Source: Pseudomonadota bacterium
Lineage (GTDB): Bacteria; Pseudomonadota; Gammaproteobacteria; Burkholderiales; Gallionellaceae
Direction: 5' to 3'
NCBI GenBank assembly: GCA_021821945.1
Contig: JAJZTF010000002.1
Location: 124,001 to 188,000, forward strand
DNA: 64,000 bases
Shown here: one piece after another, positions 3,758 through 38,630 of the stretch
Numbering within the stretch: position 1 is the stretch's first letter
Layout of the letters: every line of letters starts with the position of its first letter
Made by a program: the position numbers and the translations under genes
Notes under the pieces: model-generated
Told to the model about the DNA's origin: nothing
What the model saw: only the letters and a program-made list of their open reading frames with translations
Databases searched by the model: none

Positions 3758-6700
3758 TTATTTTTTCGGCGCGTCGGCTGGCGCTTCCAGCACTTTGACC
3801 GGTTTCTCGCCAACCTTGACGACATTTGGGTTTGCCCACGAACCGCTTACATTGTATTCAAAAGACATCAACTTATCGAGCGGGTTCCCAAGCACCTTGC
3901 TGACGATGAAGGTGCCAATGCCGACAACGGGGCCTGCCGCGAACGCGCTCAGCGTGGAGATGCTCGAGCCCAGGGTGGGGAGGATGGCGATGTGCAGGTC
4001 CTGGGTCTCGTCGTTCAGGTTCACAGAGCCCTTCATCACCACCTTCGCCGATGAGCCGTCTATGCGCAGGTCATCCGTCTGCATCACGCCGTGCTTTATA
4101 GTGGCATTCCCCTTGATGCTGTCGAACTCGAACCCCGAGCTGAAAACGTCGGTGAAGTCGAGCGCGATGCGCTTCGGAAGCTCCTGGAGACTCAATATGC
4201 CAAGCAGTTTTCCGAACCCCGGATCCATCTTCAGGAACTGGCCCTTTCCCGTGTTGAGATTGAGCGTGCCATCCAGGGTTGCGTATTTGAAGTCGTCTGG
4301 CTGCCCTTCCCAGTTCAGATCTGCGACCAGCTTGCCGCTGCCATTCTTGACCGTATTGGGGTAGCCTGAGCGGGCCAGTATCTTGCCTGCATTGGAAATG
4401 TCGACCAGCAGCTTGACCTGGGTCTGGGTATTGCGCCAGTACCCATCCCCGGTGATCGTGCCGTCCGGATTGGTGATGCGCAGGCGCCTCAGCCGCCAGT
4501 CAGCCCCTTCAGGGAAGCCAACGAGCTCGAAGCGCCCGATGTTCTTTCCCTTGTACAGCATGTCCTCGATTGCGATTTCCATCGCGGGAAGCCGGTGAGG
4601 GGAGACAGGCTGCGCCTCGGTTTTGATTCCGGGTGCGGCTATTTTTTTCTCGCCCGCAAGATAGAGGTTGTGCATGTGGGCGATCAGTTTTCCGCTGCCG
4701 CCATATCCCTGCGGCTGCCAGACGACATCGCCATTCGCCTGGTTGCCCGAGAGCCGTGCGATCAGGCTATCCCCGCGCTTTCTTGCGGTGATCTGCAGAT
4801 CGTCGATGCCGAAGCCAAAGCCTTTGAGCTTGTCTATGTGAAGGTTGGCACCCGCAATCGGCAAGGATGAGGGGCCTTCGCCAAACCCGCCCCATCCCTG
4901 CATGGAAAGGACAGGCAGATTCCCCGCGAGCCAGATGCCGGTCTGGGCGCCTGTCGCATCCGCGCCCTGGTCCTTCACCTCTCCGAAGCTGACGACCCCG
5001 CGCGCGATGGCGCTCTCGCCGTTCTCGCTATAGAGCCTTGCATTCAGAAGCTTCGCGAGCCTGATGCCGATCATGTATTGGCCCGGCGCGATGTTCTTCC
5101 TTTCAATGCGCAAAGGCCAGACCTCCTCGGGACTCTTGGTCAGAGGCTCTGGCAGGGAGGAACTTATGCCCTGCAGATTCGAGTTCAGCGTCAGGTTGAC
5201 GATTTTCTTCGCGACAGAGATGTTCGCATCCCATGTCGTGCTTCCATGGAGGTTTTTCAGCAGTGGGGGAAGTTCGGACTCGCGCATGGCGTCGAGATTG
5301 GCTCTTCCCTGTATGCTCGCGTGCACAGCCCCTTCGGCAGTCTGAACATTGAGGCGCGCAGGTCCCCCCAGGATGGTTGCTGTCGCGTTGTTGGTCTTTA
5401 TTCCGGACTGCGTGAAGGAAATTTCGCCTCTGGCATTGCGCAGCATGGGTGCGCCGTGACCGAGATCGATATCGCTGCCCTGTATCTTGAACAGGCCGGA
5501 TATTGTCGGCGGCTTGCTCCTGGACAGCGGAATCTGCGCGGCAAGGTCGAGCTTGCCCTCGCCGCTCGCCTTGATGTCGTCGGTGAATCCGTCTATGTAA
5601 CCGCGAACCGGGCTTTGCTCCACGAACTGCAGGAAAGCGCTGTTCGTTGCGTCCGCGTGCCCCTGGATTTCCATCGACACGTCGGCATGCAGCATGTCTG
5701 GCAGGACAACGGAAAGGTCGTGTATGCGCGCACCCAGCATGGAAGCGGTGGGTGCATGAAATTCCAGCCTGTTGTCGTGTATCAGGAAGGAACCCGAAAG
5801 ATTCTCGATCCTGGGCCAGTCCTTGGCGAACTGCATCGAAGCGTCCTCTGCATGAGCCGTGATCTCGAGCGAGGCGTCATGTTTTCCGTTGAGCGGAAAT
5901 TCGCTCAGATTGCCTTTCAGCCGCAGGTGAAAATTTTCGGTGTGCCCCGAGAGCAGGGCGCTGTTGAGCCAGTCGCTTTCCTTCTGGTGCAGTGCCATGA
6001 GCGGCGTATAGCGGGCTGCCCGCCGGATGTCGCCGCGCGTGAGATTGACCGTCAGATCGATCACGCCGCGCGTGCCGGCCCTGGTGCGGTAGCTGCCATA
6101 GGCATTGCCGGCCAGATCGTCGTTGACTGCAGCCACATTGGCCACGCTGATGAACAGCTCTCCTTGTTCGCTTTTCCAGCTTGCCTGCCCGGTCAGCGTG
6201 GCGAACGCGACGGGCTCCCTCATGATGCCGGGTGCATCGACCTTGAGATTGCGCGCATTGATCGCGAGATTTCCGCCGCTTTCGCTGCCGTCTATCGATG
6301 CGGTGAGGTTTGAAAATCCGGGAAGCTTGCCGGCCTGCTGCATCGCGAGATTCTCGAACTGCCCCTTGACCCTGTAACTCTTGAGCTTTTCTTCAGCGAT
6401 CTGCCACTGCAGATCCAGGTCGGATGCCCTGCCTCGGGGCTGGTAGGCGTCGAGCTTTTCGCGCAGGCCCGCATCCAGCGGAAAGTAGCCTGCCAGGCTG
6501 GTCAGGGTCTCGAGATCAAGAACATTGGCGCGCAGCTCTCCCGTTGCAGGGTGCAACTTGCCCGGCGCCATGGTGCGAAAATAGAAATCGGTGGGCTGAA
6601 GCCGGATTCCGTTTTTTAGACCCATCGCGAGGCGGCGGGTCTCGATTTCCCAGCCGTCTGAAAGCCTCTTCCAGTCGACCCTTCCGCGCAGGTATTGCAC

Positions 6701-16757: not shown

Positions 16758-17591
16758 TCAGCTCATCGGCGTGAAGCTCGTCGCCCACTGCATCTCCAGC
16801 GTCTCCCTGGCATTTTCAAGATCATCATGAGCAAGCCCGATCTGCTCGAGCTCTTCCGATGAGGCCTCTGGACAGGCTGCTCCGCGGATCGCGCTCTCTC
16901 CCGTGATCGACTCGATGATGCGCACCAGCGTGATGGGTATGTTGTCCAATGCCGGCCTGTGGTGACCCTCTATCACCCGGATCACATCGTCCGGCAGATT
17001 CCATTTTCTGGCCATCATGCCGCCGATTTCGGCGTGGGTGATGCCGAATTGCGATATCTCGAGGTCGATGGTGGACGCCTCGGGGTGGGCTTCGACATGG
17101 CTTATGAATGCGTCGAATTTTGCGGGATCGAGATGGGCCATCACGAGATAGCCCATGTCGTGCAGGAGGCCTGCGAGAAACAGCATGTTCTCGTCCTGTT
17201 TGTGTCTGCCTGGCAGCCTGGATGCGAGGAGGCGCATGCCGGCCGCCACCGAGAAGCTGTGCAGCCATAGATCGCTCAGCGTGAATATTTTGCTTTCGCG
17301 TATCTTGATGGGCTCGGTCAGCGCGATGACGGTCGCAACGGATTTAACGATGGAAAGCCCGAGAACCAGCGCGGCATCATTCACCGTGCTGATCCTTCTT
17401 CCGACTACGAAGACGGGGGAATTGGCCATGCCGATCAGTCTGGCCGAGATGACGGGATCCGATTTGACGAGATCGAGAAGCTCCTGTTCGCCCTTTTCGG
17501 TGTCCAGCTGCAAAGACAGCAATTGCCTCGCTATGGTGGAAATGGTGGGGAGAACGTCTGCCTTCCCGATCTTTGCGCGCAGGTCTTCCAT
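16758..17591 (-). CDS. HDOD domain-containing protein
   Basis: HDOD pattern: LPTISTIARQLLSL, LFLAGLLHDMGYLVM. Confidence 0.85.
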   Translation of the reverse strand: MEDLRAKIGKADVLPTISTIARQLLSLQLDTEKGEQELLDLVKSDPVISARLIGMANSPVFVVGRRISTVNDAALVLGLSIVKSVATVIALTEPIKIRESKIFTLSDLWLHSFSVAAGMRLLASRLPGRHKQDENMLFLAGLLHDMGYLVMAHLDPAKFDAFISHVEAHPEASTIDLEISQFGITHAEIGGMMARKWNLPDDVIRVIEGHHRPALDNIPITLVRIIESITGESAIRGAACPEASSEELEQIGLAHDDLENARETLEMQWATSFTPMS

Positions 17592-28231: not shown

Positions 28232-28974
28232 TTCTTCCCCAGCCACCCTTTCAGCGCATCGAGCTGGCCGTACTGGGTCAGATCGATCTGCAGCGGGGTC
28301 AGCGAGACAAACCGATTCTCCACCGCATGAAAATCGGTGCCTTCCCCGGCATCCTGGGCGGTGCCTGCGGCCCCGACCCAATAAACGGTTTCTCCTGTCG
28401 GGCTTTGCGCCTTGATCACGGGCTCCGCCTTGTGGCGCTTTCCGAGGCGGGTCACGTTCATTCCTTTAAGCTCGTCAAAGGGAAGGTCTGGCACGTTCAC
28501 GTTGAGCAGCCAGGGAAACTCGTGAGTGTTGCCGGCAAAGCGCCTGACAAGATCTGTGACGACCCTGGCTGCAGTATCGAAATGCTTCAATTCCTTCCCG
28601 ACAAGCGAAACGGCGATGGCGGGGATGCCGAGGAGGTATCCTTCGGTTGCGGCAGCGACTGTTCCGGAATAAATCGTGTCATCCCCCATGTTCGCGCCGG
28701 CATTGATGCCGGATACAACCATGTCGGGCTGGTAATCGAGCATGCCGGTCACGGCAAGATGCACACAGTCGGTGGGGGTTCCGTTGACGTAGTGGAATCC
28801 GTTAGCTGCCCGCCTCAGCTTCAAGGGACGATCAAGCGTCAGGGAATTGCTGGCCCCGCTGCGGTCCCGTTCGGGTGCCACCACGACGACTTCTGCGATG
28901 TTTGATAGATGATCAAAGAGCGTTGCCAGGCCAGGCGCGAAGTAACCATCGTCATTGCTGATCAGGATGCGCAT
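28228..28974 (-). CDS. surE: 5'/3'-nucleotidase SurE
   Basis: [39 protein letters not shown]. Confidence 0.95.
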
Positions 28975-29116
28975 TGTTGAAATATCAGATAGCAGGGGCC
29001 AGCCAAAATTGATCGGGGCTTGAGGATTTCAAGCTTCTGGGATGATAACCCATTGCGGCTGAAACCACCAATACTGCCTTTCAGGCGTATCGAAGCTTCG
29101 TGGCCTTTGCTAAGAC

Positions 29117-29134
29117 TGTCTCCTTATGGAGACA
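29117..29134. promoter_or_regulatory. GlrR-type site 1: TGTC-TCCTTATGGA-GACA
   Basis: Perfect dyad matching the published TGTC-N10-GACA GlrR motif. Confidence 0.65.
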
Positions 29135-29194
29135 TGAAAAATATCATTATTTCCAAGCCATTGAATATATCCCCGAGGTTTTTGCAAGGCCGGG

Positions 29195-29212
29195 TGTCGC
29201 TTTCTGGCGACA
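29195..29212. promoter_or_regulatory. GlrR-type site 2: TGTC-GCTTTCTGGC-GACA
   Basis: Perfect dyad matching TGTC-N10-GACA; centre 78 bp from site 1. Confidence 0.65.
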
Positions 29213-29300
29213 CTAAATTTTTCCGTTTAAGCAGAAGGATAAAGGAAGCTTCCACAAAGAGGCATTGAAAATCAGCTGGATATCATTCTGTTTTCATCTC

Positions 29301-29317
29301 TGGCCCGGTAATTGCTT
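29301..29317 (+). promoter_or_regulatory. Sigma54 (-24/-12) promoter TGGCCCGGTAATTGCTT
   Basis: GG-N10-GC spacing; matches TGGCACG-N4-TTGCW except one base; predicted TSS ~29327, ~23 nt before ATG 29350. Confidence 0.7.
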
Positions 29318-29349
29318 CAACTCGTGTGTCCATCACAAGACTGAAGAAC

Positions 29350-31215
29350 ATGAAAAACCACGACTCGAACGGATTGATCCCCCCCATACGCCGCGGCAGC
29401 ATGGCGCCGCGTCCCTGGACCGGCTTCTGGAAAGGCCTTGTGCTGATGCTGACCGAACGCGAGGAGCCTTCTTCGACAGGCACCTCATGGATGCGCGCCG
29501 CATCGAGACGTCGCATGTTCCTTTTGTTGCTGGTGATCATGAGCGCGGTGATGGCGGGAAGGCTGCTTGTCTACACGCAGCCCGCGGATAGCGCCTATCC
29601 CGTCCTGCATTATATTCAGCTCGCGCTCTTTGTCCTGCTGTTCGGCTGGGTGGCCGCCGGTTTCGTGACGGCATTGATGGGGTTCTGGGTGCAATGGCGT
29701 CCGGATGCGCATGCGCTGTCGCTCTCTACTGCGCGCCGTCAGATCTTGAGCAAGGAAGCCAGGACCGCGATCATCATGCCGATCTGCAATGAACCTGTCG
29801 GCCCGGTCTTTTCGGGTTTGCGCGCAACCTGCGAATCGCTGCTCACGAGTGAGGCTTCAGGAATTTTCGATGTCTTCGTTCTTTCCGACACCTACAACGC
29901 CTCGATGCAGGAACAGGAACTCGAAGCTTTCCAGGCATTGCGGCAGCAGCTTGGCGACCGCTGTCGCATCTATTACAGGCTGCGCAAGCGCCGTGTCCAT
30001 CGCAAGGCCGGAAACGTCGCGGACTTCTGCCGTCGCTGGGGAAAAAATTACCGCTACATGGTGGTGCTCGATGCCGACAGCGTGATGACAGGGGAAAGCG
30101 TCACCATGCTGGTGCGCCTGATGGAGGCGAACCCAAAGGCGGGCATCATACAGACTGCGCCGCGCGCCTGCGGCGTGCAGACACTGCATGCGCGCATTCA
30201 GCAATTTGCAGGCAGGGTGACGGGGCGCCTGTTCACTTCCGGCATGCAATACTGGCAGCTCGGTGAATCGCATTACTGGGGACACAACGCGATCATACGC
30301 GTAGAGCCCTTCATGAAGCATTGCGCGCTGGCCAGGCTGACCGGAAAAGGCGGGCTTTCAGGCGAGATACTGTCGCACGACTTCGTGGAGGCCGCGCTGA
30401 TGCGCCGCGCGGGCTATCACACCTGGCTGGTCCCCGATCTCGGGGGGAGCTACGAGCAGCAGCCATCCAACCTGATGGAAGAGCTGCAAAGGGATCGCCG
30501 CTGGTGCCAGGGGAATCTGATGAATTTCCGGCTCATCACGGAGCAGGGGTTTCAGCCTGTCCACCGGGCGATGCTGTTCACCGGCGCGATGGCCTATGTT
30601 TCCGCCCCGCTATGGCTTGCCTTCTTGCTTGTCAGCCTGAGTCTGGGGCTTTTGGAGCCGCACGGCGCCAACTCTAGCCTGTTTCCCTGGCTTGGCATGT
30701 CCTACATGCTGGAGATTTTGTGGGCATTCACGCTGACGCTGCTGTTTCTGCCGCGTATCCTGGCCGTGATCGCGATCATCGGGCTAGGAGAGCAGGCTGC
30801 CTACGGCGGAACCCTCGCGCTGATCAAGAGCGCGCTGATGGAAGCGTTCCTGTCGGCGCTTCAGGCGCCCATCCGCATGGTCGCGCATACGCTGTTCGTG
30901 GTGACTGCGCTGACCGGGATAGGCCTGGAGTGGAAGTCGCCGATGCGCGAAGCGACTTCCATCCTGTGGCGCGATGCGTTGCAAAGATTCATGCCGGTGA
31001 TGGCCGTCGCCTCATTCGCCATGCTTGCGACTTTTTATGCGCGTCACGATGCGCTGCTCTGGCTTCTGCCGGTGGGTTTGCCCCTGCTGTTGGCCGCTCC
31101 CCTGACCGTCTTGACCAGCGAATCCCGCTGGGGCTTGAGGCTGAGGTATCGTCTCTGGCTTCTCACCCCTGAGGAACGCATCCCACCTGCAGTTCTGATC
31201 AGGGCCTGGGCATAA
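29350..31215 (+). CDS. opgH: Glucans biosynthesis glucosyltransferase OpgH (MdoH)
   Basis: GT2 fold: MVVLDADSVMTGESV, HDFVEAALMRRAGY, ELQRDRRWCQGNLMN, multiple TM helices. Confidence 0.92.
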   Translation: MKNHDSNGLIPPIRRGSMAPRPWTGFWKGLVLMLTEREEPSSTGTSWMRAASRRRMFLLLLVIMSAVMAGRLLVYTQPADSAYPVLHYIQLALFVLLFGWVAAGFVTALMGFWVQWRPDAHALSLSTARRQILSKEARTAIIMPICNEPVGPVFSGLRATCESLLTSEASGIFDVFVLSDTYNASMQEQELEAFQALRQQLGDRCRIYYRLRKRRVHRKAGNVADFCRRWGKNYRYMVVLDADSVMTGESVTMLVRLMEANPKAGIIQTAPRACGVQTLHARIQQFAGRVTGRLFTSGMQYWQLGESHYWGHNAIIRVEPFMKHCALARLTGKGGLSGEILSHDFVEAALMRRAGYHTWLVPDLGGSYEQQPSNLMEELQRDRRWCQGNLMNFRLITEQGFQPVHRAMLFTGAMAYVSAPLWLAFLLVSLSLGLLEPHGANSSLFPWLGMSYMLEILWAFTLTLLFLPRILAVIAIIGLGEQAAYGGTLALIKSALMEAFLSALQAPIRMVAHTLFVVTALTGIGLEWKSPMREATSILWRDALQRFMPVMAVASFAMLATFYARHDALLWLLPVGLPLLLAAPLTVLTSESRWGLRLRYRLWLLTPEERIPPAVLIRAWA

Positions 31216-32754
31216 ATGGACCGCCGCCAATTTTTGGGTTTGCTGGCTGCCGTCGCCTGCTCCGATGCATGGGCTGAAAATGCCGTCCTGCCCATGGGAA
31301 AGGCGAAGTCATTCAGCTGGGATAAACTGGTCGAGGAGGCGCGCCTGATGGCGGAGAGTCCCTATCGTCCGGCCTCCCAGCCCGATGCCGCCGTGCTCGA
31401 GCAGATCGACTGGGAGGCGCATGGAAAAATCCGCTTCAAGCCCGAAGATGCGCTTTTCTCGGATGGTCCCGGCCAGTATCCGATAGCATTCTTCCATCCG
31501 GGAAGATTCTTTCAAAAGCCGGTGAAGATGTACCGGCTGGATCCGATGGCTTCGGGATTCCTGTCCCGCGAAGTTCTGTACGACAAGAACTGCTTCGACA
31601 TGCCTGCCGACAGTCCTGCGCAGAGGTTGGGAGCAGACACCGGCTATGCGGGATTTCGCATACAGGAGAGCCGCAAGGATGGGCGCCTCGATTGGCGGAA
31701 CAACGACTGGGCCGCGTTTCTGGGCGCCTCGTATTTTCGCGCGATCGGCGACGAATATCAGTACGGACTTTCCGCACGCGGCATTGCGATCAATACCGTG
31801 GTGAAGGGTGTCACCGAGGAGTTTCCTGACTTCACCCGGTTCTACTTCGAACCCTCGGACAAGAATGAAATGACGGTCTATGCCCTGCTGGACGGGCCGA
31901 GCCTCTCTGGCGCCTATCGCTTCCTGCTGACGCGGGGCAAGGGTGTGGTGATGGATGTAAATGCCAATCTTTTCCTGCGCCGGGATGTCGAGCGCTTCGG
32001 CATCGCTCCGATCACCTCCATGTACTGGTTTTCCGGAAAGGACAAGCTGTTCCAGGAAGACTGGCGGCCCGAGGTGCATGACTCGGATGGTCTTGCGCTC
32101 TGGACGGGCAGGAATGAGCATGTCTGGCGCCCTCTGATCAATCCGTCCGGGATCAATGTTTCCTATTTCACGGACAGGGACCCCAAAGGGTTCGGGCTGA
32201 TGCAGCGGGAGCGCCGTTTCTCCGAATATCTGGATGGCATCCATTACGAGCGCCGTCCCAGCCTCTGGGTGGAGCCTCTGGAGGGGTGGGGCGAGGGGAC
32301 GGTCGAGCTTGTCGAGCTGCATACGACCGAGGAGATCTACGACAACGTCGTTGCGATGTGGGTGCCGCAAAAAAAAGCGCGTGCGAAAGACAGCTATCGG
32401 CTGCGCTACCGGCTGTACTGGCAGGCAGAAGAGCCGTTCGCCACGAACCTTGCGCGTTGCGTCGCAACCCGCATAGGCCGGGGAGGGGAATCGGCAAAAC
32501 GTCCCAAGGGCGTGCGCAAGTTCGAGGTCGAGTTCACGGGGATTCTGCCTGGCGTTCATCCCGAAGCGGTGGTGACCAGCACGGGCGGCAGGATATCGAA
32601 CGTGATGACCGAAGCGGTGCCCGATGGGAAACCGGGAGGTTGGCGCGCCTTTTTCGATGTCGAGGCGGAGGACACCGTCGAGATACGCCTCTACCTCAAA
32701 TCGAATGATTTGACGCTGACCGAGACCTGGCTTTACCAGCTACACCCAGCCTGA
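31216..32754 (+). CDS. Periplasmic glucan biosynthesis protein OpgG/OpgD
   Basis: N-terminal DRRQFLG (Tat-like) signal; MdoG-like body (ARGIAINTVVKGVTEEFPDFTRFYFE); directly follows opgH. Confidence 0.9.
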   Translation: MDRRQFLGLLAAVACSDAWAENAVLPMGKAKSFSWDKLVEEARLMAESPYRPASQPDAAVLEQIDWEAHGKIRFKPEDALFSDGPGQYPIAFFHPGRFFQKPVKMYRLDPMASGFLSREVLYDKNCFDMPADSPAQRLGADTGYAGFRIQESRKDGRLDWRNNDWAAFLGASYFRAIGDEYQYGLSARGIAINTVVKGVTEEFPDFTRFYFEPSDKNEMTVYALLDGPSLSGAYRFLLTRGKGVVMDVNANLFLRRDVERFGIAPITSMYWFSGKDKLFQEDWRPEVHDSDGLALWTGRNEHVWRPLINPSGINVSYFTDRDPKGFGLMQRERRFSEYLDGIHYERRPSLWVEPLEGWGEGTVELVELHTTEEIYDNVVAMWVPQKKARAKDSYRLRYRLYWQAEEPFATNLARCVATRIGRGGESAKRPKGVRKFEVEFTGILPGVHPEAVVTSTGGRISNVMTEAVPDGKPGGWRAFFDVEAEDTVEIRLYLKSNDLTLTETWLYQLHPA

Positions 32755-32758
32755 CAAT

Positions 32759-34090
32759 TCAGGACCTGACCGATGCGGGGTCGAGCTGATGCTTCTGGAG
32801 CAGCTTGTAGAATTCGGTGCGGTTGCGTTTTGAGAGCTTTGCTGCCTGGGTCACATTGCCTTCCGTGATCTTGAGTATGCGGATCAGATACTCCCGTTCG
32901 AAGCGTTTCTTTCCTTCCTCGAGCGAGAGCAGCATTTCCTCCTCCTGGTGCATGGTCTGCTGGACCAGCACCGACGAGATCAGGGGGGTTGTGGAAAGCG
33001 CAATGCTTTGTTCCACGACATTCAAAAGCTGCCTGACATTGCCAGGCCAGGGTGCCTTCACCAGCGCTTCCATCGCCTCCTGTGAGAATCCGTTGATGTT
33101 CCGGTTGTATTTCCTGGCGAGTGTCGACAGGAAATGCATGGCCAGCAGGGGGATGTCCTCGCGGCGCTCGGAAAGGCTCGGGATCACGAGCTCGACGACA
33201 TTGAGGCGGTAATAGATGTCTTCCCGGAAATTCCCCGCCTTGATTTCGGCTTTCAGGTCGCGGTGGGTCGCCGAGATGATGCGCACGTCGAGCGGAATTG
33301 CAACCGTGGCACCCACCGGGGTGACCCGTCTCTCCTGAAGCACGCGCAGCAGCTTGCTTTGCAGCGCGAGCGGCATGTCTCCTATCTCGTCCAGAAAGAT
33401 CGTCCCGCCGTTTGCCGACTGGAACAAGCCCTTGTGGTCCCGGACTGCGCCCGTGAATGCGCCCTTGGTGTGTCCGAAGAGCTCTGATTCGAGCAGCTGT
33501 TCGGGTATCGCCGCGCAGTTGATCGCGACGAACTGGTTCTTTGCGCGCGGGCTCGCATCGTGTATCGCATGCGCCAGCAGTTCCTTTCCGGTTCCGCTGG
33601 CGCCCCTGATCAGCACGCTCGCGTCTCCTCCTGCGACCAGTTTTGCCTTCATCAGCACGTCTTCCATGATGCTGCTCTGGGTGACGATGCCGCTGCGCCA
33701 TTGCGCCTCCTCGGGAGACTGGGTCGAGGATGAGAACTTGAGCGCCCTTGAAATATGCTCGAGGAGCACGGCGCTGTCGAAAGGTTTGGTCAGATAACCA
33801 AAGAGTCCGCGCTGCGTTGCCGCAACGGCATCCGGTATGGTGCCATGCGCGGTGAGCATGATCACCGGGAGGGCCGGCATGCTTCTGTGTATGTGCTCGA
33901 AAAGCGCCATGCCGTCCATGCCATGCATGCGCATGTCCGTGATCACGAGCTGGGGTCTTGCCATTTCGAGGGACTGGATCGCAGCCTCCGCGCTGTCAGC
34001 GGATACAACCTCGTATCCTGCCGAAGTGAGCCGCATGGACAGGAGCTGAAGCAGATCGGGGTCGTCGTCGACGATCAGTATTTTGCTCAT
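32759..34090 (-). CDS. glrR: Sigma54-dependent response regulator, GlrR/QseF-like
   Basis: Receiver domain (ILIVDDDPDLLQLLSMRL), AAA+ with GASGTGKE and GAFTGA loop, C-terminal HTH; operon with histidine kinase and lipoprotein. Confidence 0.85.
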   Translation of the reverse strand: MSKILIVDDDPDLLQLLSMRLTSAGYEVVSADSAEAAIQSLEMARPQLVITDMRMHGMDGMALFEHIHRSMPALPVIMLTAHGTIPDAVAATQRGLFGYLTKPFDSAVLLEHISRALKFSSSTQSPEEAQWRSGIVTQSSIMEDVLMKAKLVAGGDASVLIRGASGTGKELLAHAIHDASPRAKNQFVAINCAAIPEQLLESELFGHTKGAFTGAVRDHKGLFQSANGGTIFLDEIGDMPLALQSKLLRVLQERRVTPVGATVAIPLDVRIISATHRDLKAEIKAGNFREDIYYRLNVVELVIPSLSERREDIPLLAMHFLSTLARKYNRNINGFSQEAMEALVKAPWPGNVRQLLNVVEQSIALSTTPLISSVLVQQTMHQEEEMLLSLEEGKKRFEREYLIRILKITEGNVTQAAKLSKRNRTEFYKLLQKHQLDPASVRS

Positions 34091-34611
34091 GGCTGATCCT
34101 TGCGACTGGTTTCGTAAGCCTTGATTGCGTCTATCTTGCCCTGCAGCGACTTGGAGTGCATCTTCTCGCTGGCAAGCGCCTTGTTAAGTTCGTTTGCCGC
34201 ATTGTCCGCTTCAATCTGCTGGGAAAGAAGCGAGCTTAAAAGCAGGGCGAGATCGCGAAGTTCCGTTGCATCCTGGTCCGGCCAGGCGGTCAGAAGGTCG
34301 CGCGCGGCTGCCGTGTTGCGAAAGGAGGTGCCGGGCAGGGAAAGCAGCATCGCCAGCTTGATGCGTTGAACATTTCCGGGGCTCTTGGGGAAGTTCGCGT
34401 TGACGGCATTGTATTCGCCTGCTGCATCCTGCGCGGGCAGCGCGCTGATACGGGAATAGTATCGCAGGACTTCAGTGATCTCCGGAGTCTCCTTCACGGG
34501 CGGGCAGATGACGTGGGTGCGCACGGGGGGAGGAACGGGAGCGGGGGGCGTGGCGGTCTTGCATGCGCCAAGCAGTAGCGTCAGCATCAAAAGGTGGAAT
34601 TTCTTGATCAT
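34087..34611 (-). CDS. Lipoprotein, QseG/YfhG-like, in two-component operon
   Basis: Lipobox TLLLGACKT; position between kinase and regulator as in the glrK-yfhG-glrR locus. Confidence 0.7.
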   Translation of the reverse strand: MIKKFHLLMLTLLLGACKTATPPAPVPPPVRTHVICPPVKETPEITEVLRYYSRISALPAQDAAGEYNAVNANFPKSPGNVQRIKLAMLLSLPGTSFRNTAAARDLLTAWPDQDATELRDLALLLSSLLSQQIEADNAANELNKALASEKMHSKSLQGKIDAIKAYETSRKDQP

Positions 34612-36140
34612 AGGGTTTCGTCGGGGTTCAATGGGAAAGTCAGACGGAAGCATGTGCCTTTTTCATTCTCTGCTAATTCTATCGCTCCTCCATGCACGAG
34701 TGCATATTCGCGTGCGATGGAAAGGCCAAGCCCGGTCCCCTTGATGTGGGACTGGGGTGCCCTGCGGCCCTGATAGAAGGCTTCGAAGATCTTTTCCCGG
34801 TCCATGAGGTCTATGCCGGGGCCAAAATCGATCACGTCGAGCGTCAGCGTGCGGTCCGATTCCGCCGCACGTATCCTGATGGTTCCTCCCGGGGGGGAGT
34901 ACTTGATCGCATTGGAAAGCAGGTTGTCGACAATGATCCTGAATTTTTGCTGGTCGCAGGTCATCGATATTTCCGGGCAGGACAGCTCGATCTGCAGCGA
35001 CTTGTTGGTGATTGCCAGATACTGGTCACGCACCACGAGTTCGAGCAGGGGCTTGAGCGCCACCTTCTGTCTCAGCAGCACAACCTTTCCGGATTGCAGC
35101 GCACTGAAGTTTAACAGGTCTTCGATGCGTTTTTGCAATTGCACGCTGTTGGTCGCGAGTATCCTGACGATTTCGGTCTGGTCCGGGTTGAGTCCGCCTG
35201 CAATGCCTTCTGAGAGCAGGTTCGTCCCTTCCCTGATCGAGGTCAGCGGAGTCTTGAGCTCGTGGGAGACATGCTGGAGGAAGGTGGATTTCTGCTCTTC
35301 GATTTCCAGCAGGCGCGAACGCATCCAGTCCAGCCTCTCGCCCAGGCGCTGCAAGTCCTGAGGGCCTGCTATGCTGACTGCATTCGATAGATTGCCGTTG
35401 CCTATCGCGCGGATCGCCTTGTCGATTTGCCGCATGGGTCTTGCGATCAGGATGGAAAATCCGAAGGCAAGAAGAATCACCAGGGGGATCAGGGCGATCA
35501 GCAGCCAGACGATCACGCTGTTTGCCTGATCGGCCATGTCCTGCATCGCGCTGACTTCCCGCTCGATGGGCGCATCGCCGTGTTTCAGGAAGCTCTGCGT
35601 TGCATCCATCAGCGGGGAGAAGTCGACATGCCATTCGCCCTGATGCGAATGGGCGATGCTTTGGACATTCCGGAAGATGGCGGCATCGGCTGCGTCTATC
35701 TTCTGGAGCAGGCCGATTTGCTGAGGCGTGAGCGGAAGGGCGCCGAGATCTCCCAGGGTTTCCCTGAATTTTTCCCGGTTCTGAAAATAGTTTGCCAGCA
35801 GGGAGTCGTCGGTCAGGATGGAGGACAGTTTCACGTTGTGCTCCATCGTCGTCGCGTAATCGACCAGCAGACGGCTGAAGTGAGCGATCCTCTCGGCCTT
35901 GTAGACCACCTGGCGGTTCTGTTGTGCAAGCTTGTTGATCGATGCTGCGCTGTACATGAGGGAGAGCATCAGCGGCACCGAGGCCAACAGGAATCCCGCC
36001 AGGATCAGCCCCGAGAAGGACTTGGGGAGCCATGCTGACAGTCTTTTTGCGAGCCTCGATGTCAGGCTTCTGCTCGTGCGGGTTTGAAGGTGAAACATGT
36101 CGTGGGAGGCGGCAATCTGTCTGGATTGCGATTCTACCAT
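34608..36140 (-). CDS. glrK: Sensor histidine kinase, GlrK/QseE-like
   Basis: Two TM segments, HAMP, HVSHELKTPLTSIREGTNLL H-box, HATPase N/G boxes. Confidence 0.85.
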   Translation of the reverse strand: MVESQSRQIAASHDMFHLQTRTSRSLTSRLAKRLSAWLPKSFSGLILAGFLLASVPLMLSLMYSAASINKLAQQNRQVVYKAERIAHFSRLLVDYATTMEHNVKLSSILTDDSLLANYFQNREKFRETLGDLGALPLTPQQIGLLQKIDAADAAIFRNVQSIAHSHQGEWHVDFSPLMDATQSFLKHGDAPIEREVSAMQDMADQANSVIVWLLIALIPLVILLAFGFSILIARPMRQIDKAIRAIGNGNLSNAVSIAGPQDLQRLGERLDWMRSRLLEIEEQKSTFLQHVSHELKTPLTSIREGTNLLSEGIAGGLNPDQTEIVRILATNSVQLQKRIEDLLNFSALQSGKVVLLRQKVALKPLLELVVRDQYLAITNKSLQIELSCPEISMTCDQQKFRIIVDNLLSNAIKYSPPGGTIRIRAAESDRTLTLDVIDFGPGIDLMDREKIFEAFYQGRRAPQSHIKGTGLGLSIAREYALVHGGAIELAENEKGTCFRLTFPLNPDETL

Positions 36141-38526: not shown

Positions 38527-38630
38527 GAATTGGCGGGTCTCCCCGCATTGCAGGGTAGCAAACCTGGTCAGGTCCGGAAGGAAGCAGCCATAGTTATTTC
38601 TGCAAGTGCCGGGGGTAAGGCTCGCCTCCT
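38527..38630 (+). ncRNA. ffs: Signal recognition particle 4.5S RNA
   Basis: Conserved core GGTCAGGTCCGGAAGGAAGCAGCC flanked by complementary arms; boundaries approximate. Confidence 0.93.

Follow-up and report, generated by a model that had tools for sequence, protein, structure and literature searches.

In E. coli the opgGH genes belong to the sigma E regulon; to our knowledge, little is known about the control of periplasmic glucan synthesis outside the enterobacteria. The E. coli small RNA gene glmY is transcribed from a sigma54 promoter that GlrR (QseF) activates with the assistance of IHF (PMC6075780), and three GlrR sites are present in its upstream region. QseF also activates the E. 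coli rpoE P2 promoter (Klein et al. 2016, as cited in PMC6075780). The GlrR/QseF consensus has been given as TGTCN10GACA (PMC8745638) and as TGTN12ACA (PMC6075780).

The window (the whole 64,000-nucleotide stretch of DNA analysed, most likely from a Gallionella-like bacterium) was found to contain the following features.

29117-29134, plus strand: predicted GlrR upstream activating site 1, TGTCTCCTTATGGAGACA (motif match, aligned and conserved among relatives)
29195-29212, plus strand: predicted GlrR upstream activating site 2, TGTCGCTTTCTGGCGACA (motif match, conserved among relatives)
29270-29282, plus strand: AATCA element AATCAGCTGGATA, IHF-like with 2 mismatches to WATCAANNNNTTR (consensus scan; ATCA core invariant in 12 genomes)
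29301-29317, plus strand: predicted sigma54 -24/-12 promoter TGGCCCGGTAATTGCTT (GG-N10-GC spacing; GG and TTGC unchanged across 12 genomes)
29350-31215, plus strand: opgH (mdoH), glucans biosynthesis glucosyltransferase (NF003960, 912 bits, exceeding the cut-off of 829)
31216-32754, plus strand: opgG (mdoG), periplasmic glucan biosynthesis protein (PF04349, E 8.8e-172)
32759-34090, minus strand: glrR, sigma54-activating response regulator of the NtrC type, carrying GAFTGA (436-residue alignment with E. coli GlrR at 57% identity)
34087-34653, minus strand: glrG, small predicted lipoprotein in the position of qseG (lipobox LLLGAC and position)
34608-36140, minus strand: glrK, sensor histidine kinase (HAMP, HisKA, HATPase_c)

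The original prediction had called the two palindromes, the sigma54-like element, the opgH ATG (29350), opgH and opgG, and a GAFTGA enhancer-binding protein with its kinase and lipoprotein at 32759-36140 after opgHG; each was recovered at exactly these positions, and the two family matches bear out opgH and opgG. It had further proposed that GlrKR directly drives opg. Conservation and a site shared with glmY support this, and we consider it highly probable (about 0.9) that a GlrR-activated, sigma54-dependent promoter drives the opgHG operon. GlrK, together with the GlrG lipoprotein, would phosphorylate GlrR upon an envelope or osmotic cue, and phosphorylated GlrR would bind both palindromes. 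The DNA between these sites and the promoter would be bent, probably by IHF, and the GlrR AAA+ domain with its GAFTGA loop would open the complex of sigma54 and RNA polymerase poised at 29301-29317. The opgHG genes would then be transcribed, with OpgH and OpgG making more periplasmic glucan.

The arrangement resembles E. coli glmY in the type of regulator, in the palindromes (one of them identical), in having at least two upstream sites and a sigma54 promoter, and in a target that adjoins the glrK-glrR genes. It differs from glmY in that its target, instead of a small RNA, is an operon whose protein products make periplasmic glucan, and in carrying two sites 78 bp apart rather than three separated by 33 and 63 bp. 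With rpoE P2 it has in common an envelope function driven by GlrR and sigma54; the target there is a regulator gene (sigma E), through which any link to opg would be indirect. The enterobacterial opgGH genes encode the same two enzymes, but upstream of E. coli opgG there is neither a TGTC-N10-GACA site nor a sigma54 element. In a literature search limited to open-licence papers, opg genes were nowhere found described as targets of GlrR. The GlrR-opg link is best described as a new target and a wider role for a known type of regulator; a direct GlrR-sigma54 promoter would give this control an identified regulator with identified sites, and Variovorax, Hydrogenophaga and Polaromonas would serve as culturable bacteria in which to study it.

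The identities of opgH and opgG are certain from their family matches. MdoH glucosyltransferase and MdoG are encoded together, as in an OpgGH operon, and the first base of opgG directly follows the opgH stop codon, so a single operon is likely.

Of the three GlrR sites at E. coli glmY, the middle one matches site 2 at 18/18 bases, and this match is the strongest single fact in the analysis. The identity was absent from the original prediction. The centres of sites 1 and 2 lie approximately 201 bp and 123 bp upstream of the predicted start. Both contain the TGTC-N10-GACA frame and dyad symmetry, previously given as the only features that they share; they also agree at positions 6 (C) and 13 (G), which fits a wider consensus TGTCGC-N6-GCGACA. 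Three copies of TGTC-N10-GACA were found in the window against 0.55 expected, a number never reached in shuffles. The third copy (17501-17518) had no sigma54 element nearby and was taken as chance. The genome-wide scan suggested with the original prediction gave 43 perfect frames in 2.47 Mb against 26 for the reversed control, an excess of approximately 1.7-fold that makes the bare frame weak evidence and no proof by itself. The extended motif TGTCKY-N6-RMGACA, by contrast, has only 4 perfect copies in the 2.47 Mb genome: two form the opgH pair, and one of the others is part of a second promoter with paired sites.

The regulator assignment was examined at the level of the protein. The best NCBIfam model for the glrR product was GlrR (NF011695) at 621 bits, for which it was also the best match in the whole genome; as this score lies below the equivalog cut-off of 763, the protein is labelled GlrR-like and a likely ortholog rather than a certified equivalog. 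The receiver domain and the sigma54 activation domain with GAFTGA were found, the C-terminus aligns with that of E. coli GlrR, and the Pfam HTH_8 match was weak (20.7 bits, cut-off 22). The recognition helix RNRTEFYKLL is identical to that of E. coli GlrR and differs by few changes among relatives. GlrK of the window and E. coli GlrK are 30% identical in an alignment of 486 columns (E 6e-62) that runs the length of the kinase. Similarity between GlrG and E. coli QseG was undetectable and alignment was impossible; the resemblance to QseG is confined to position and lipobox. GlrG shows about 32-77% identity among relatives, as for a fast-evolving sensor partner.

The palindromes might instead be recognised by a different enhancer-binding protein, or by some unrelated dimeric regulator, with the adjacency of glrKGR being coincidental. 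The genome encodes six enhancer-binding proteins and bare TGTC-N10-GACA is not very specific, but the RNRTEFYKLL helix is present in GlrR only and differs in the other five, site 2 equals an E. coli glmY GlrR site, and the sites stay with glrR in various lineages, including ones that lack opg. We regard this explanation as very unlikely, and GlrR as the probable ligand of both sites.

In the -24/-12 element, TGGCCCG-GTAA-TTGC, the GG and GC pairs are spaced as in a sigma54 promoter (GG-N10-GC), and the element is of the TGGC-N7-TTGC type. It places the predicted start at approximately 29327, and rpoN (sigma54) is encoded in the genome with a score above cut-off. No sigma70-type promoter was found within 28970-29400 (0 found, 0.5 expected). 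The AATCA element is located between site 2 and the promoter, where IHF would bend the DNA, and an IHF role for it is suggested by this position and its consensus match. A near copy of the promoter elsewhere in the genome (C26:61221) was rejected, having no TGTC-N10-GACA nearby and being located within an open frame. The surE gene is divergent, on the other strand, with its start approximately 140 bp from site 1, and the sites could in principle control surE or both directions. The sole sigma54 element of the region faces opgH, and four loci (L075, L246, L247 and L249) keep the sites and promoter with opgH while surE was undetected in the stretch read. Control of surE is accordingly rated very improbable, and opgH is taken as the gene served by the promoter.

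Conservation was assessed by footprinting in 12 genomes, from the same genus and related lineages, whose upstream DNA is otherwise diverged. Invariant columns made up 18/53 positions in the sites and promoter against 14/240 elsewhere, the latter including the 3 of the start ATG. Both sites, the -24/-12 element and the AATCA element stood out; L107 and L242 have one mismatch in each site. The original prediction would have been refuted had relatives lost the sites and the -24/-12 element; this was checked and did not refute it, the arrangement being conserved in the genus and in many other Burkholderiales. The palindromes could also be RNA or DNA hairpins, site 2 followed by AAATTTTT scoring as terminator-like, but this is the least credible alternative, as the palindrome is kept in relatives and the T run is not, chance alone would give 0.7 terminators of this kind in the region, and surE and opgH are divergent, leaving no upstream transcript to end.

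The breadth of the GlrR-opg arrangement was assessed with OpgH relatives taken from 80 genomes, 76 of which had enough upstream DNA to read. At 70/76 loci the opg operon, led by opgH or in some cases by opgG, was preceded by a perfect site and a sigma54 element; the 80 loci are the best OpgH matches, so they do not sample opg genes at random. The rest of the same 1.24 Mb contained 1 site and sigma54 combination, and the reversed motif gave 1. One of the 70 (L174) looks spurious, and three loci outside them (L107, L111 and L131) have versions judged by eye as near-perfect. The 76 loci come from Gallionella relatives, Ferrovum, Variovorax, Polaromonas and Hydrogenophaga, among others; Comamonadaceae mostly have the genes in the order glrK-glrR-opg, with a pair of sites spaced 67 bp apart and CTGGCACAGGGTTTGCC. 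No such sites precede opg at four more distant Burkholderiales loci (L054-L057), so the link is not universal. A class-wide pattern search matched 14/369 genomes, and matches other than opg look background-like. GlrR appears from these comparisons to be a direct activator of opg genes in the Gallionella-like bacterium and in many betaproteobacteria.

Among 76 genomes of the genus, opgG and glrR were both present in 10, one was present alone in 2 and neither was found in 64 (Fisher p ~1e-10, uncorrected for shared descent). The exceptions were G822, a 65% complete assembly with opgG alone, and G799, with glrR alone. In G799 (L250, 10048-10521), where glrKGR occurs without opg, a site pair and sigma54 element lie directly 3' of glrR and precede a relative of a small Lys/Ala-rich protein of the source genome. 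In the source genome (G000:C10:9953-10114; L101, minus strand, ~3890-4115) two palindromes, TGTCGCCGCCCGGCGACA and TGTCTCCGCCCGGAGACG, 65 bp apart, and a sigma54 element, CTGGCACGGCACTTGC, precede the gene for a 63-residue secreted Lys/Ala-rich protein, for which no Pfam family match was obtained. With opg, GlrR thus has at least two predicted targets in the source genome. Since glrKGR of G799 occurs without opg, opg was probably gained by or lost from GlrR regulation within the genus. The link between GlrR and opg proposed originally is not a peculiarity of this one locus, and opg is not the sole predicted target of GlrR in the source genome.

In other Burkholderiales, GlrR-linked sigma54 promoters were found before BON-domain-like genes (weak Pfam matches, partial sequences) and before glycine-zipper genes (target loci of the two kinds: L077, L078, L080-L082; L212, L213, L217). 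In G022 (L104 / L085), a GlrR site and sigma54 element just 3' of glrR are followed by a unit of ~65 bases that ends with a strong hairpin (z -3.3) and a T run and has no evident reading frame; this is a possible GlmY-like small RNA. Based on a modest number of loci, we lean towards GlrKGR being a widespread betaproteobacterial envelope switch, in which regulator, site and sigma54 promoter are constant and the neighbouring target is swapped between lineages. The targets would comprise opgHG or opgGH, BON-domain (OsmY-like), glycine-zipper and small Lys/Ala-rich secreted proteins, and small RNAs. The enterobacterial GlrR-GlmY pathway would thereby appear in a new light, as the small RNA may be just one among several exchangeable envelope targets of an older switch. 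The earlier suggestion that opg is controlled here rather than, or in addition to, GlmY/GlmZ fits, in its 'rather than' form, the window as far as Rfam goes, no GlmY or GlmZ match being found in it or in three loci. A bacterial small SRP RNA gene (Rfam RF00169) is located at 38532-38629 of the window, flanked by a fumarase gene and by a short secreted-protein gene that precedes dnaX.
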